Source of the DNA: a virus
Length of the DNA: 20,871 bases
Strand: one strand, 5' to 3'
Virus record (IMG/VR): IMGVR_UViG_3300025930_000041
Coordinates: 1-20,871 of that record
Below the pieces are notes generated by a model, which did not search any database, was not told the DNA's origin, and saw nothing but the letters and a program-made list of their open reading frames with translations. The translations under genes were made by a program, and so were the position numbers. This document shows positions 1,658 through 12,608 of this stretch, one piece after another. The first letter of the stretch is position 1, and each line of letters starts with the position of its first letter.

Positions 1658-3640
1658 TCAGTCTTCGCCGCGGATGGCGTCGATGATGTCCTGCAGCTTG
1701 GCGTTCCGCTGCAGATCCGTCCGGTCTGACCGCCGGTGATGCCGCCGGCGCGTTGCGGTCCCGGGCACCACGGCCCAGTTGTCGCCGACCGGCAGGTTTT
1801 TGCTGCTCACCAGCCGCCGCACCTCGCCGTCGAGCCACGCATAGGCGTCGGCCAGGCCAGGCACCTCCAGCCCGCTGTGCAGCGCCTGGGCGAGCGCCGC
1901 GCGCTGATAACTGGGATACGTCAGGTCGGTCGTATTGGCGGGCAACTGGTCGCCGTCCGCCGCGACATCCCAACCATAGGTCAGCACGTTGAGATCCGTC
2001 GCCTCGCGCCAGCTCAGGCACTTGGCGCCATACACCGGCTTGTTGATGGCGTGGTCCGCCGGCTTCGGCCTCGATGCGATTTCCCACGTCAATCCGTCCG
2101 CGCTGTCGCCCAGCGTCAGCGTCTCGCTGTCAATCGTCACGCTCATGCCGGGCAGGAATTGCTGCACATATTTGATCGTCAGCTCGCAGCTCGATTTCGT
2201 CATCGCCGTCGCCAATACCGAAGCATTCTGCATGCGGATGTGGTACGGCGCGCAGCGCGTCCGGCACCAGCCGCTGGTCGCCGAGGCGCGGTCGATGCTG
2301 GAGTGCATGAGCCACTCGGCCGGCTCGACCCACTCCGGCCGCCAGGATGCGATCCACGCCGCGGTCAGGTCCACAAAGGCCTGCTGCCAGACATGATCGC
2401 CCGACCGGTTGGGGTCCAGTTCCGACGACTGGCCGCTCTCGTAGATCGTATGGAAAACGTAGTAATACGGGTCAGAGGCGTTCGCCATCCGCGTCTCGAC
2501 GTGGCCCCGGTTCACCTCCAGCCAATGCTCCCAGTACGACCTCGGCAACAACCACGACGGCACCACGGCGGGCGTTGCGACGACGCATTCCGCGATGGCT
2601 CGGGTCGGCCACGCCCAGTATCGTCCCATCACCATGCAGCGCGAATCACTGGGTAGCGAAAGCTGCTGGTAATTCGTCGTGAATTGCATTGCCTCCAGAT
2701 AGTACGGATCGCCGGTCAGCAGGAAAGGTATATACACCGCAGAGGGCAGATGCCCTTGGTCCGTCCGCAGCGGGCTGGGGCCTTTGGCGATGTAGGGCGT
2801 GCCCTCGCTGCTGCTGTACATGTTGGCGCCGGGGAAGTCGTCCACGATATCACCTGGCGCTGGGGCAAGCGTCTCGGGATCGCGCACCACGCACGGATAG
2901 CTGTTGATTGCCTCGGCCTGATCGCGCCACGGAGTCTCCGGGGCGTTGCGCACGAGGTACTGCGCCTGCCATCCCGTGATGATGCCCAGTCCTGGGTAGC
3001 CGCCGGTCTGGCCCTGATTGCCCGGCATGCCACACGTCGCCATCGGCTTGTAGGCGCTCACCGACAGGATCGGGCCTTTCGCCAGCCCGGTCGTGTCGAG
3101 CGGCGGGATGAGGTTCTGCGCCACGAGCTGTGCGTAGGTGCGACGCACCGGGCGCGGTGCCGACTGCCAGCGCCAGCGCCCAAACCAGTAGTGCCCGCTG
3201 GTGGCCTCTACGGTGGCTGTGGAGCCGTCGCGGCGCGTGATGGTGGCGGTGTAGGCGGGAAGGTTGGCGGCCTGTGCGGTGGCGCGTGGCTGGCCGTGCT
3301 CGAACACCCACTCTTCGCGGCCGCCGGACCTGTCCGGGCGGTAGAACGCCAGCATGTGCGGCAAGCCGGGATTCACGCACAGCACGTTGTCCATGACGAA
3401 CCTGCCGTCCGGGTCGGTGTAGCTGTCGAGCGCCTGGCCCTCGCTGGCGAGGAACACGTAATCGTTGCCGCCCATGCGGATTGTGGCGCGCGCCTCGCCG
3501 TCGTCCGGTGGTGGCTCCTCCGGGTCCGGCGGATCGGGTGGATCGGGCGGCTCCGGCTCCACCTCCGCAGGCACGAACAGCCGCTGCGTCTCGGCGGTCT
3601 CGAATACAATGATGTGCGGGTAGGTCGGTGGCTCGGCCAT
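1658..3640 (-). CDS. 660-aa putative virion or carbohydrate-active protein with Pro/Asp linker
   Basis: ATG at 3640 is preceded by a GGGGAAA SD. Residues 1-27 form a short N-terminal module. Residues 28-47 are a low-complexity (PPD)n/Glu linker. The remainder is a long globular domain rich in Trp, Tyr and Pro. The segment around HLPSAVYIPFLLTGDPYYLE, with repeated aromatic helices, resembles alpha/alpha-toroid (six-hairpin) glycosidase-like proteins. That points to polysaccharide binding or cleavage, as in a tailspike or accessory depolymerase, but I cannot name catalytic residues. The C-terminus is basic (RRRHHRR) and then helical. It is transcribed like the late genes but separated from them by the plus-strand cassette. 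It overlaps no other real gene; the long plus-strand frames opposite it are codon-bias shadows. The existence of the gene is firm, its function is not. Confidence 0.7.
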   Translation of the reverse strand: MAEPPTYPHIIVFETAETQRLFVPAEVEPEPPDPPDPPDPEEPPPDDGEARATIRMGGNDYVFLASEGQALDSYTDPDGRFVMDNVLCVNPGLPHMLAFYRPDRSGGREEWVFEHGQPRATAQAANLPAYTATITRRDGSTATVEATSGHYWFGRWRWQSAPRPVRRTYAQLVAQNLIPPLDTTGLAKGPILSVSAYKPMATCGMPGNQGQTGGYPGLGIITGWQAQYLVRNAPETPWRDQAEAINSYPCVVRDPETLAPAPGDIVDDFPGANMYSSSEGTPYIAKGPSPLRTDQGHLPSAVYIPFLLTGDPYYLEAMQFTTNYQQLSLPSDSRCMVMGRYWAWPTRAIAECVVATPAVVPSWLLPRSYWEHWLEVNRGHVETRMANASDPYYYVFHTIYESGQSSELDPNRSGDHVWQQAFVDLTAAWIASWRPEWVEPAEWLMHSSIDRASATSGWCRTRCAPYHIRMQNASVLATAMTKSSCELTIKYVQQFLPGMSVTIDSETLTLGDSADGLTWEIASRPKPADHAINKPVYGAKCLSWREATDLNVLTYGWDVAADGDQLPANTTDLTYPSYQRAALAQALHSGLEVPGLADAYAWLDGEVRRLVSSKNLPVGDNWAVVPGTATRRRHHRRSDRTDLQRNAKLQDIIDAIRGED

Positions 3641-3663
3641 GCGGTTTCCCCTGCATTATTGTG

Positions 3664-3693
3664 TTGACTGCTGGTGCGTCGGTGGTGCATATC
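3664..3693 (+). promoter_or_regulatory. Putative sigma70-type promoter of the plus-strand cassette
   Basis: TTGACT (3664-3669, five of six consensus bases) is followed after 18 bases by CATATC (3688-3693, three of six). Transcription would start near 3700, which is the ATG of the ribbon-helix-helix gene, so the transcript could be leaderless. The -10 lies inside an array of heptamer repeats, so the promoter looks repressible. The -10 match is weak, so the assignment is tentative. Confidence 0.4.
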
Positions 3694-3701
3694 GGGTGCA
3701 T
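3673..3701. promoter_or_regulatory. Three phased GGTGCRT heptamers: putative ribbon-helix-helix operator
   Basis: GGTGCGT (3673-3679), GGTGCAT (3684-3690) and GGTGCAT (3695-3701) are direct repeats with start-to-start spacing of exactly 11 and 11 bases, about one helical turn. They span the promoter spacer, the -10 region and the ATG at 3700. Ribbon-helix-helix repressors such as the omega/ParG/CopG type are known to bind arrays of tandem short repeats cooperatively. The first gene downstream encodes such a protein, so autoregulation is the natural reading. They also lie 33-61 bases upstream of the divergent gene that starts at 3640 and could control it. Confidence 0.6.
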
Positions 3702-3828
3702 GGCAAGAATGTCTCTGACCATGACAGAACCGCAGTTGGTTTGGCTGCGCCGCGAGGCGAAGAGGCTCGGCATCACCGTGGCCGATCTCATCCGCCGCAT
3801 CATTGACCAAAAGAGGATTGACCAGTGA
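3700..3828 (+). CDS. Ribbon-helix-helix (Arc/CopG-type) transcriptional regulator, 42 aa
   Basis: The frame is open from 3628 but the real start is most likely the ATG at 3700 (or 3709), because the ribbon-helix-helix fold begins there: a strand (MSLTMTE), helix A (PQLVWLRREAKRLG), then helix B (TVADLIRRIIDQ). This matches the family pattern of a short beta strand, a Leu/Ala/Arg helix ending in Gly-Ile/Val-Thr, and a second helix with IRR. Such proteins are obligate dimers that place the beta strands in the major groove. No clear SD precedes the ATG, consistent with a leaderless message. The stop overlaps the next gene's start (GTGA). It is the first gene of the cassette and lies directly on the phased heptamers. 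Confidence 0.72.
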   Translation: MARMSLTMTEPQLVWLRREAKRLGITVADLIRRIIDQKRIDQ

Positions 3829-4136
3829 CAACGACAGAAATCACCGCCGCCGGCTACATCGTCCACGACGACAGTGGCGTGATCTACGGCTACGGCGCGA
3901 CCGATAAGGCCGCATGGGACGACATGCGCACCAACATGGAACTCGACGGCATCAAACTGCTAGGCGAAGACGATGACGCCACCGACGAGCTGGGTTCCTG
4001 GACCCGCGAAAGCAGCATGACCGTTATGCCGGCGTCGAAGGCACTGCTGGAAATGGTGGAAGACGAGGGCGGCGACTGCTCGTGGAGCAACATCAACGGC
4101 ATCGCCTGCACGACGGATGAAGAGACAGACGAATGA
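3825..4136 (+). CDS. Acidic hypothetical protein (103 aa)
   Basis: GTG start overlapping the regulator's stop, with a good SD (AGAGGA at 3812-3817, 7-nt spacer). The N-terminal half (AAGYIVHDDSGVIYGYGATDKAA) looks like a beta-rich segment followed by a helix. The remainder is strongly acidic, with many Asp and Glu and few basic residues. It has two Cys near the C-terminus but no transmembrane segment. Strong acidity can indicate DNA mimicry or an anti-host protein, but that is speculation. The stop overlaps the next start by ATGA. I recall small accessory proteins of similar opening sequence on alphaproteobacterial replicons but cannot name a function. Confidence 0.75.
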   Translation: MTTTEITAAGYIVHDDSGVIYGYGATDKAAWDDMRTNMELDGIKLLGEDDDATDELGSWTRESSMTVMPASKALLEMVEDEGGDCSWSNINGIACTTDEETDE

Positions 4137-4345
4137 GCGAGACGCCCGACAATCTGGTGCTGGCCCGGTTGCGCGAGATCCGCGACATGCTTGGCCGCGT
4201 GCTGGAGGACACCGCCGATCTGCGGCTGCGCGTTGGCGCCCTGGAGGCACAATTCGCCTCGGTGTCATTGCGAGTGGACCGGCTGGACGGACGGCTGGAG
4301 CGCATCGAGCGCCGGCTTGGCCTCATCGACGAGCCGGCACATTAG
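4133..4345 (+). CDS. Small coiled-coil protein (70 aa)
   Basis: ATGA overlap with the previous stop. After MSETPDN the whole protein is a heptad-patterned helix (LVLARLREIRDMLGRV, then LRLRVGALEAQ, then LRVDRLDGRLERIERRLGL). Small proteins that start with 'SETPDNLVL' and continue as a coiled coil are common in Rhizobiales genomes and their mobile elements, without a known role. Here it is the third gene of the cassette. It may form a homo-oligomeric scaffold or serve as a partner for neighbouring small proteins. It has no catalytic motif and no membrane segment. Confidence 0.8.
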   Translation: MSETPDNLVLARLREIRDMLGRVLEDTADLRLRVGALEAQFASVSLRVDRLDGRLERIERRLGLIDEPAH

Positions 4346-4365
4346 GCAGGCAGGGAAGACCGACA

Positions 4366-4539
4366 ATGCGCATGTCACGAACTGAACGGGACCAACTGAT
4401 CATCTCCATCTGGGAGATGATCGAGGACGCCGAACCGGACATTTCGACTGAGCGCCTAATGGCGATGGTCGAGAATGACACCGGCGCCGACTATCATCGC
4501 ATCATAGAGGCGCTGGAGCGGGCCGGAATATTAACATGA
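4366..4539 (+). CDS. Small hypothetical protein (57 aa)
   Basis: The start at 4366 (or the ATG at 4372) is chosen because a purine-rich GGGAAG SD (4353-4358) precedes it and because the frame further upstream overlaps the coiled-coil gene. The sequence is helical and acidic (ERDQLIISIWEMIEDAEPD, then a helix ending YHRIIEALERAGIL). This is compatible with a compact helix-turn-helix-like or winged-helix mini-domain, though no DNA-binding residues stand out. The stop TGA overlaps an ATG at 4536 in the next frame. I do not recognise the family. Confidence 0.65.
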   Translation: MRMSRTERDQLIISIWEMIEDAEPDISTERLMAMVENDTGADYHRIIEALERAGILT

Positions 4540-4613
4540 TCCACACTAGAGCGTTCAGCGGCGCAGCGCTTTGGATGACACACGCGCCGCATTCACACGA
4601 AAGGCTTTTGAGT

Positions 4614-4832
4614 ATGACTAGACTAGCACTCGCCGCGGCACTCCTGCTCGCGGCAACGCCCGCCTTCGCACAGACGTCACAGGGCTGGCAGCAATACGCG
4701 CCAGGAAACAGCAACTGGGAACAATACGTGCCAGGGAATAGGCCGATGCCCAGAATGCAGGATGTGGATGCCAGAGGGTGCCGCCCCGTGTTCATCCCAG
4801 GGCAGGGTTATCAGACGCAGTGCGGCTACTGA
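4614..4832 (+). CDS. Secreted small protein with Sec signal peptide (72 aa)
   Basis: The start at 4614 is chosen over the in-frame ATG at 4536 because it puts a textbook signal peptide at the N-terminus: MTR, a 12-residue Ala/Leu core, then TPAFA|Q with cleavage after residue 19. An AAAGG sequence lies about 9 bases upstream. The 53-residue mature protein contains an imperfect tandem repeat (QQYAPGNSNW / EQYVPGN) and two Cys near the C-terminus (RGCRPVF and QTQCGY) that could form a disulfide, as expected for a periplasmic or outer-surface protein. A phage-encoded secreted protein next to a membrane protein suggests envelope modification or superinfection exclusion. The alternative start at 4536 would be coupled to the previous gene but would bury the signal sequence. 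Confidence 0.72.
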   Translation: MTRLALAAALLLAATPAFAQTSQGWQQYAPGNSNWEQYVPGNRPMPRMQDVDARGCRPVFIPGQGYQTQCGY

Positions 4833-4833
4833 C

Positions 4834-5091
4834 ATGGAACTGATGATTGGCGCCGGCCTTGCACTCGCGCTGCTGTATTTCTGGCTGATCGGGCACTGGT
4901 TTGCCCGCGTGGTGACATTCCTCGCCTTCGGCGCTGGGTTTGTCTTGCTCGGATTAGCCATAGAACACGGGAAGAGTGCTGCCGCAGAACTGGCCTGCAT
5001 CGCGCTCGGATTCGTCGCTGGATGGTTCGTCGCAAGCCTGCCGACTTACTACTGGCGCCACCAACTCAGACAGATGCTGCAGCCCTACTAG
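4834..5091 (+). CDS. Three-TM small membrane protein (85 aa)
   Basis: ATG at 4834 follows the previous stop (TGA at 4830-4832) by one base, so translation is probably coupled; no clear SD is visible. Three hydrophobic segments are evident: about residues 4-20 (IGAGLALALLYFWLIG), 25-43 and 50-69 (AAELACIALGFVAGWFVAS). A short polar tail ends in QPY. It could be a holin, or a superinfection-exclusion protein acting with the secreted protein encoded just upstream. Its TAG (5089-5091) overlaps the stop codon of the convergent ejection-protein gene, with no terminator between them. Confidence 0.72.
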   Translation: MELMIGAGLALALLYFWLIGHWFARVVTFLAFGAGFVLLGLAIEHGKSAAAELACIALGFVAGWFVASLPTYYWRHQLRQMLQPY

Positions 5092-9255: not shown

Positions 9256-10107
9256 CTAACCAGCGGTAAATCCGCCAGGCGCCACCTGGCCCGGCACCAT
9301 AGACGGCGCATACCCGGTCATCACGGGATTGCCCGACGCGCTGAAACCCGGCGTCCCAGGCGCAGCGGTGCCGTAGGTGTTCTGTGGGTTCATGTAGCGG
9401 CTGAACGCGTCGTAGCTCAGGTAATTCTGCAGCCCCTGGTTCAGCGCGTTGCCGGTGTTGGTCAGCCCGCGCGCTTCCGCCTCGCCCGCCGCCTGCAGCG
9501 CATTGCCGGCATTGCCTGCCGCCTGCACGCCTTGTGATCCAAGTCCCGCCGCAGCATTGGCGCCAAGCGTTGCCGTGTTCTGTAGCCGCTGGAACTGGTT
9601 GGTGAGCTGCCCCTGCTGGCCGGTGTTCAGTTCCAGCACGTCCTTGAACCGCTGCTGCGCGTTGTTGAACTGGTTCTGGTAGTTCTTGTCCGCCAGCCCG
9701 GTCACAAACTCGGCCGCGCCCTTGAGGCTCGCACCTGACACACCAAGCCCACGCATAGCCGCTGCGCTCTGTATCTGTTTCAACCCTTGCTGGAGCTGAA
9801 ACTGATAACCGGGCGTCTGCTCGAGTTCCGCCTGCGTCATCCGTGGCGGCAGGTATTGGTTATAGGCCAAGTCAACATAATTCGGCCCGCCGCCGGTCGG
9901 CCCGCTGCTCGCCAGCGTCGCCAAGCCAGGCAATGCGCTCGCACCTGCAGCCATGAACGGCGACAGGTCCTGCCGCGTCATCAGATACTGCATCTTCTGC
10001 AGGTTGGCGCTGTCCTTCGCCGCACCGGCCGCCTGGCTGCTGCCGTATAGCTGTGAGCCAACGGTGGCGGCTGTGCCAACTGCTGCAACAGCTGCTGCTG
10101 CGCCCAT
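9256..10107 (-). CDS. DNA ejection/transfer protein, gp7-like
   Basis: The ATG at 10107 is preferred over the GTG at 10110: the SD AGGAGGG (10119-10113) is 5 bases from the ATG but only 2 from the GTG. The protein begins with an Ala/Gly-rich hydrophobic segment (GAAAAVAAVGTAATVGSQLYG). It continues with the characteristic phage motifs QTPGYQFQLQQGL and AAAMRGLGVSGASLKGA, followed by Gln/Asn/Ala-rich helices (YQNQFNNAQQRF). These motifs recur in podophage proteins annotated as DNA transfer or ejection proteins. The C-terminus is Gly/Pro-rich. It is the first of three ejection genes in a row and follows the sulfotransferase/GNAT gene by a TAGTG overlap. Confidence 0.8.
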   Translation of the reverse strand: MGAAAAVAAVGTAATVGSQLYGSSQAAGAAKDSANLQKMQYLMTRQDLSPFMAAGASALPGLATLASSGPTGGGPNYVDLAYNQYLPPRMTQAELEQTPGYQFQLQQGLKQIQSAAAMRGLGVSGASLKGAAEFVTGLADKNYQNQFNNAQQRFKDVLELNTGQQGQLTNQFQRLQNTATLGANAAAGLGSQGVQAAGNAGNALQAAGEAEARGLTNTGNALNQGLQNYLSYDAFSRYMNPQNTYGTAAPGTPGFSASGNPVMTGYAPSMVPGQVAPGGFTAG

Positions 10108-11543: not shown

Positions 11544-12608
11544 TCAGAGGTCCGCCGACAGGTTATATCCGACGTTGATAGCCCATTGCCCTGCGGCAGC
11601 AGCTATTCCCTGTGTGTATAAAAAACCGCTACCCGCAACGGATGTGACGCTATTAAGATTTAGCGGCGCGCTACCAGTCATCACGACAGTTGGTGTCGCT
11701 CGCATGGCTACTGGAATTGATACCGATGCAGCTATGGTCAATCCAGCACCGCTTGCATAACCAGCAACATATTGTCCTAGCGTCTGATAGAACCGCTGGC
11801 AGGCGGCGAGCTGTTGCTGCGGCGGCAGTGCGACCCACGGCGTTGCAACAGATCCTGGCTCGAACTTCACTTGCGATAATGTGCCGGCGTTGAACTCGAT
11901 GGTGGTGTTGGCTCCTGCCGTGACGCTGCCGCTGACCGGTGACGCGGCATAGGAGCCGACGCCGATGCGTCCCTGTGCGGTGCCGGTCCATGACAGCGTG
12001 TAAGTGCCGCCAGCGAGCGCGCCACCTTCTATGATCTGCTGCAATGTGCCGGCGGTGATGGTGATGCTGGTGGACGGCCCTGATGGTGCGGCGAACGTGT
12101 ATGTCGCGCCACCCGCGCCGGCCTTCCATCGGTCGTGGCCATAGCTCCCGGCGGTGAGCGCGGCACCGCTCGTATAGGCCCTCTGGTTGATGGTGAATCC
12201 GCCGTTGTCGGCGTAGCTGGCGCCTGGAATAGCGGCGGCGGTTCCACCTGTAACAGCATTCAGAACATAGGCCGTTGTCGCGATCTGTGTGCTGTTGGTG
12301 CCTGCCGTTGCTGTCGGTGCAGCCGGTGTGCCGGTGAAGGTCGGTGATGCCAGCGGCGCGCGGGTAAGGTCGGACGGGTGGATGTGATCGCCGCGCGAGA
12401 CCGCTGCCGCCACGCCAGGCGCTGCTGTGCCGTCCATCATCGGCGGCGCCGCGCTGTAGTTCGGCGTGTAGGCGGTATTCGCGTAGCTGGCGATCTCGGC
12501 CATCGTCGCGGCGTAGGCTGTCGTGGACGCACTGCGCGCCAGCGGCAGCTTGTCGGTCGCCGTCAGCGTGCCGGGATCTGCGCCCGCACTGATTTTGGTG
12601 TCAGCTAT
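11544..12608 (-). CDS. Tail fibre protein with apparent AUA start codon (354 aa)
   Basis: The first ATG is at 12503, but the frame is open for 35 further codons up to an ATA at 12608-12606. The translation there, xADTKISAGADPGTLTATDK, is a normal tail-fibre N-terminus. A perfect SD AGGAGG (12619-12614) sits 5 bases before it, and an in-frame TAG lies only three codons further up, so no ATG, GTG, TTG or CTG start is available near the SD. The fibre then has the repeat-like HIHPSDLTRAPLASPTFTGT ... QIATTAYV, a beta-sandwich module (INQRAY ... YGHDRWKAGAGG ... YTLSWTGTAQGRIG ... EPGSVATPW) and a QRFYQTLGQ segment before the beta C-terminus. These are well-known phage tail-fibre modules for surface recognition. 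Confidence 0.78.
   Translation of the reverse strand: MADTKISAGADPGTLTATDKLPLARSASTTAYAATMAEIASYANTAYTPNYSAAPPMMDGTAAPGVAAAVSRGDHIHPSDLTRAPLASPTFTGTPAAPTATAGTNSTQIATTAYVLNAVTGGTAAAIPGASYADNGGFTINQRAYTSGAALTAGSYGHDRWKAGAGGATYTFAAPSGPSTSITITAGTLQQIIEGGALAGGTYTLSWTGTAQGRIGVGSYAASPVSGSVTAGANTTIEFNAGTLSQVKFEPGSVATPWVALPPQQQLAACQRFYQTLGQYVAGYASGAGLTIAASVSIPVAMRATPTVVMTGSAPLNLNSVTSVAGSGFLYTQGIAAAAGQWAINVGYNLSADL

Follow-up and report, generated by a model that had tools for sequence, protein, structure and literature searches.

Phased heptamers over the start of a small phage ribbon-helix-helix gene: a possible operator in an exchangeable promoter slot

Introduction

Autoregulation by ribbon-helix-helix (RHH) proteins through short phased repeats is already an established principle. 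The locus described here raises the question whether a phage RHH protein of 42 residues controls its own synthesis through three heptamers that run into its start codon. A sequence-only reading had proposed this and had gone further, describing a compact autoregulated switch between divergent genes. We examined the proposal in the window, by which we mean the whole analysed stretch of 20,871 nucleotides (positions 1 to 20,871 of IMG/VR virus record IMGVR_UViG_3300025930_000041).

The window is a fragment from an approximately 42-kb tailed phage. Ten relatives share the 660-aa gene that diverges from the RHH gene, and several of them measure about 41-43 kb. These are probably complete genomes, since the first bases are repeated at the end in three of the four relatives inspected. 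By its structural genes (head closure Hc3, ejection protein, lytic tail protein), this is a short-tailed phage with a tail like that of P22. The closest isolates, all under 50% identity, have Pseudomonas, Rhodoferax, and Acetobacter as hosts. One relative, G002 (L162), stands for a phage type with host-like regulators: it encodes GcrA, a NusG-like protein, a DnaA C-terminal domain, and methylases of two types (a DNA methylase and MT-A70). It also has an HTH_3 protein, encoded about 1 kb beyond the window's left end. GcrA is an alphaproteobacterial regulator, and because G002 carries it, the host is probably alphaproteobacterial.

Results and Discussion

The plus-strand gene at 3700-3828 encodes the 42-aa protein MARMSLTMTEPQLVWLRREAKRLGITVADLIRRIIDQKRIDQ. 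Against Pfam this protein scores with RHH_1 (14.9 bits, cut-off 20.5) and with the NikA-like family (16 bits, cut-off 27), in both cases below the cut-off. Its relatives score with the same two families, and the orthologue from relative L007 exceeds the RHH_1 cut-off with 20.8 bits. An AlphaFold monomer model of the window protein (pLDDT 87.5) places helices at residues 10-23 and 27-41 behind an extended N-terminus, in which the ribbon strand is modelled with low confidence. The leading PDB matches found by Foldseek are the RHH DNA-binding proteins ParG (probability 0.99), CopG (0.98), Arc, and PutA; the E-values of these matches exceed 0.1, as expected with 42 residues, and it is the agreement among the top hits that carries the argument. 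The model shows the features of the fold, a beta-alpha-alpha unit that measures about 40-50 residues and begins with a ribbon strand. Because the model is confident, the fold matches are RHH proteins, and an orthologue scores above the RHH_1 cut-off, we conclude from predicted structure and homology that this is a real RHH protein of the MetJ/Arc/CopG kind. The first claim of the earlier reading is therefore upheld, and relatives use the same start. The protein is rare: when 2.9 million viral contigs were searched by alignment, it turned up at only six loci, and no relatives were found in the 84,980 genomes searched or in plasmid and phage records.

The segment 3664-3707 reads TTGACTGCTGGTGCGTCGGTGGTGCATATCGGGTGCATGGCAAG. 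It contains three exact plus-strand copies of GGTGCRT, namely GGTGCGT at 3673-3679 (copy 1), GGTGCAT at 3684-3690 (copy 2), and GGTGCAT at 3695-3701 (copy 3), as the earlier reading had said. The copies are spaced by exactly 11 and 11 bp and run from the spacer of a candidate promoter to the start codon: the ATG (3700-3702) opens within copy 3, which includes its first two bases. The four-base linkers, CGGT and ATCG, and the flanks are unlike between copies, so the array is no simple tandem duplication, and recent slippage by 11 bp is rejected. The promoter segment holds no inverted repeat of at least 5 bp.

Is this arrangement more than coincidence? The main rival explanation holds that there is no operator array: copy 3 would belong to a conserved translation-start region of the RHH gene (GGTGCATGGCAAG), and copies 1 and 2 would be GT-rich matches that are in phase by accident. 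Two counts lend it weight. GGTGCRT is not enriched across the window, where six occurrences face 9.9 expected, and 7-mer triples of the same quality (at least 6/7 identical columns) are expected 0.47 times per window, or about half a triple, over periods 8-22, with five observed. Against it stands the local rarity of three exact, equally spaced copies within 29 bp of promoter. At period 11 the expectation for such triples drops to 0.013 per window, and the heptamer array is the sole one observed at period 10-11. Dinucleotide shuffles of the local 70 bp produced three GGTGCRT in 2 of 20,000 cases and equal spacing in none, a result that overstates the surprise because the test is post hoc. The array is probably not due to chance, though a scan of 20 kb for any phased repeat has fair odds of a find.

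The promoter under the array is a candidate. A possible -35 element, TTGACT, lies at 3664-3669 on the plus strand and is kept as TTGACA, TTGACT, or TAGACA in relatives. By its sequence, CATATC (3688-3693, plus strand; 3/6 matches, spacer 18) could serve as the -10 element, and GCATAT (3687-3692; 2/6 matches, spacer 17) is an alternative. A consensus scan called neither the TTGACT nor any other sigma-70-type site here, and no canonical promoter was found. The proposal that the array covers the spacer, the -10 region, and the ATG thus stands as to its position in the promoter and start segment of a divergent region; the promoter itself is a candidate with a poor -10. If the candidate -10 is used, transcription would start about 7 bp past it, at or beside the ATG, and the RHH mRNA would therefore be leaderless. 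Leaderless mRNAs are common in alphaproteobacteria (PMC7566282).

The comparison with relatives gives a mixed picture. The intact array is confined to two near-identical records, L002 and L003, which are 99.6% identical over the stretch and represent the same phage; their shared array is uninformative on conservation. Relatives L007, L008, and L011 encode an RHH protein of 45% identity in the same place and with the same MAR start. Upstream of it, GGTGCATGGCAAG is kept, so that copy 3 and the bases following it are identical, copy 2 is cut to its TGCA core (4/7 identical positions), and copy 1 is gone (1/7 at the aligned place in L007). Copy 3 may thus be just the translation start region. This pattern supports the incidental-match explanation, and together with the counts above it makes that explanation the main rival, albeit one that we rather doubt. 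The L007 promoter does contain another phased pair, CACCGAT/CACAGAT with an 11-bp period, but it was rejected as a replacement array: such a pair arises in 3% of shuffles, and it is broken in L011.

The closest orthologue, from L006, is 80% identical and has the same ribbon S/T/T residues. It forms the C-terminal part of a 150-aa frame inside the cassette of that phage, where it has neither a promoter nor heptamers, and a tandem heptamer pair with at most one mismatch is absent from the whole 42-kb L006 genome. The sequence-only reading had proposed a search for the heptamers upstream of homologous regulators and had counted their absence against itself. In this respect it fares half badly: copy 3 is kept at 45% protein identity, but the array as such is missing there and with the 80% orthologue. 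These relatives are a weak test, because ribbon residues of the window protein are changed in the L007 group (S5 to N, T7 to V) and because the RHH domain of L006 is part of a fusion.

The L006 frame (3332-3781 of L006, minus strand) joins a T4-like HNH-type front half in frame to the 80%-identical RHH domain. The front half matches phrog_16521 (8e-20) and is about 43% identical to a Citrobacter phage protein annotated as HNH endonuclease. From 3722 on, the window and L006 share 95% of the DNA that encodes the RHH body, and because of this the stand-alone and the HNH-fused arrangements are recent recombinants, the outcome of a domain exchange between a stand-alone RHH protein and a possible homing-endonuclease-like protein. 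The same two observations, the fused orthologue and the near-identical DNA, could be turned around to argue that the 42-aa protein is the leftover DNA-binding domain of such a protein, no regulator at all, and that the array is unrelated to it. We regard this as very improbable: a free-standing RHH protein with the MAR start is kept at 45% identity in L007, L008, and L011, so the stand-alone form is no fresh remnant.

The surroundings of the array are organised into a fixed and an exchangeable part. On the fixed side lies the divergent 660-aa gene (1658-3640, minus strand), which has no Pfam or PHROG family and is conserved in all relatives, forming the conserved flank of the cassette. Upstream of it, a 20-bp block, CCCTGCATTATTGTGTTGAC, occupies 3649-3668 and ends in TTGAC of the candidate -35. 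The block is conserved in the complete relatives G002, G005, G006, and G004; complete genomes of three phage types carry it unchanged, and a fourth type has one mismatch. It is kept though the rightward genes differ, and also where identity in the 660-aa gene falls to 79%. Each genome holds one good match, with the next best at 6-7 mismatches, and the idea of a repeated phage-specific promoter was rejected on this ground. The block may be the promoter of the 660-aa gene; it contains AATAAT on the minus strand (3660-3655).

To the right of the conserved TTGAC, everything is exchanged with the cassette, and the promoter segment differs with each phage type. The plus-strand genes at 3700-5091 form a short cassette between two blocks of minus-strand genes. 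It comprises the RHH gene, a 103-aa gene (3825-4136, plus strand) whose start overlaps the RHH stop and which has no match above chance among Pfam and PHROG families, and the remaining small genes at 4133-5091 on the same strand. The first cassette gene of L006 encodes a different RHH protein (phrog_4738, a transcriptional repressor family of phages; 5.3e-10). In the corresponding slot (the promoter of the L006 cassette, at 2492-2508 of L014), between TTGACT and the start of this first gene, lies a perfect 17-bp palindrome, CGGCATACGTTATGCCG, with 7-bp arms, of a kind that arises in about 1.5% of comparable shuffled sequences. In L004 and L005 the first gene is not an RHH gene and the second encodes another RHH protein (RHH_5). 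On sequence grounds, a divergent promoter region with one fixed and one exchangeable side would be the natural reading. The exchangeable side holds the heptamers, the palindrome, and the other sequences, in exactly the position that one would expect of an operator serving a regulator from the cassette itself.

This organisation also bears on the proposed switch. The segment conserved with the 660-aa gene is the block at 3649-3668 and not the array, and an effect of the array on the divergent gene is not supported. What survives of the compact autoregulated switch is an RHH gene with an array in its promoter and start segment; the array is not conserved, and the divergent-gene part lacks support.

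A second set of observations concerns the possibility that the array is the operator of another regulator, either the phage's own HTH_3 protein or a host protein. An HTH_3 protein is encoded near this region in G002, and the 80%-identical RHH domain of L006 occurs without the array, which implies that the RHH protein and the array are separable. However, a tandem heptamer pair, even with one mismatch, occurs nowhere else in the sister genomes, and single heptamer copies follow no obvious pattern, so there is no sign of a regulon under another factor. We consider this possibility improbable.

The triple GGTGCRT pattern also occurs elsewhere, in 23 viral stretches and in more than 118 genome stretches. 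Those inspected are mostly plain 11-bp tandem repeats or lie inside genes for DnaD-like helicase loaders or primosomal proteins. In L025, L028, L033, L036, L040, L042, and others, the 11-bp-phased repeat GACGCACC sits inside DnaD-like helicase-loader genes and is read as DAPxTHxRRT. By analogy, these repeats look like origin iterons embedded in a replication gene, as in lambda O. In two unrelated phages, L031 (about 9980-10060) and L034 (about 11590-11670), a CopG-type RHH gene is immediately preceded by six to seven CACC repeats of 11 bp. By inspection, only these two and the window's phage have the pattern before an RHH gene, and we rejected it as a general RHH operator; a screen for RHH proteins by sequence pattern overlooked L031 and L034, and its negatives are therefore unreliable. 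The pattern is not diagnostic of RHH operators; L031 and L034 provide one independent case with the same layout. As in the window, an RHH_1 gene stands directly behind an 11-bp-phased array that contains GGTGCRT. The two loci differ from ours in copy number, in the opposite strand of the repeats relative to the gene, and in the RHH subfamily, and they are likewise uncharacterised.

Characterised RHH systems offer closer comparisons of architecture. Omega (ParB) of pSM19035 is a small RHH dimer; its sites are non-palindromic 7-bp repeats (WATCACW) that overlap its own promoter (PMC9499535). Omega sites consist of 7-10 contiguous heptads, spacerless and in both orientations, and serve plasmid partition with ParA; the window has three heptamers in the same orientation, with 4-bp gaps, and no ParA is seen. 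The RHH partition protein ParR of plasmid R1 binds direct repeats on both sides of the parC promoter (Dam and Gerdes 1994, as cited in PMC5016525). The parC arrangement resembles ours in placing direct repeats about a promoter, and it differs in that ten repeats flank the promoter of an actin-like partition operon, of which there is none here. The parC repeats are 11 bp long. Among the cassette genes at 3825-5091, none matches an ATPase family that could supply a ParA or ParM partner.

RelB dimers bind 6-bp repeats on the same helix face with strict spacing and repress their own synthesis (PMC2812701). The RelB/relO system shares these traits with Arc. Arc is a repressor of phage P22. Both differ from the window in their symmetrical (palindromic) half-sites, and RelB acts with the toxin RelE, whereas no toxin is recognised in the window. 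An antitoxin role would call for an adjacent toxin gene; for the 103-aa neighbour (3825-4136), comparison with Pfam and PHROG gave nothing above chance, a search that novel toxins could escape. CopG of pMV158 (1b01, 1ea4, 2cpg) is a stand-alone RHH repressor of about 45 residues and among the best fold matches of our protein. The CopG operator is an inverted repeat, unlike the promoter segment of the window.

As at omega and ParR sites, phased short direct repeats lie over the (candidate) promoter of an RHH gene; the companion feature, repeats that are kept with the regulator in relatives, is not seen. We prefer an autoregulatory operator to the other explanations because RHH proteins such as omega and RelB autoregulate through short phased repeats and because the 11-bp period suits dimers side by side on one face. 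RHH proteins are in general obligate dimers whose ribbon enters the major groove. In this mechanism, dimers of the 42-aa protein would bind the heptamers next to each other on roughly one face of the helix. Cooperatively bound dimers would then lie over the stretch from the spacer through the -10 region to the start codon, and would shut off the protein's own promoter together with the downstream cassette of small genes.

Conclusions

We tentatively interpret the heptamers as a lineage-specific operator in an exchangeable regulatory slot, autoregulatory for the 42-aa RHH protein. In favour of this still uncertain assignment are the exact and locally improbable array, the RHH fold, the palindrome that accompanies a different RHH protein in the same slot of L006, the layout in L031 and L034, and the precedents of omega and RelB. 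What holds our confidence below an even judgement is that the array occurs only in L002/L003, that copy 3 stands alone in the L007 group and no tandem array exists in L006, that no canonical promoter was found, and that most of the triple arrays inspected elsewhere do not precede RHH genes.

The exchangeable promoter slot is more interesting than the heptamers themselves. A bolder and more doubtful model would combine a fixed half of the divergent promoter, the TTGAC block, with a plug-in half, such that every incoming cassette of small genes supplies an operator (11-bp direct heptamers, a 17-bp palindrome, or another sequence) and in many cases an RHH protein to go with it. The RHH domain would even move between two settings, as a free-standing regulator and as the C-terminal end of an HNH-type protein, and the slot would swap repressor-operator pairs.

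If the operator assignment is true, the window's phage has a very small repressor with a simple phased operator. Its sister phages would then plug different repressor-operator pairs into the same spot, a set of compact and comparable switches in which to follow how RHH specificity and operator architecture change together.
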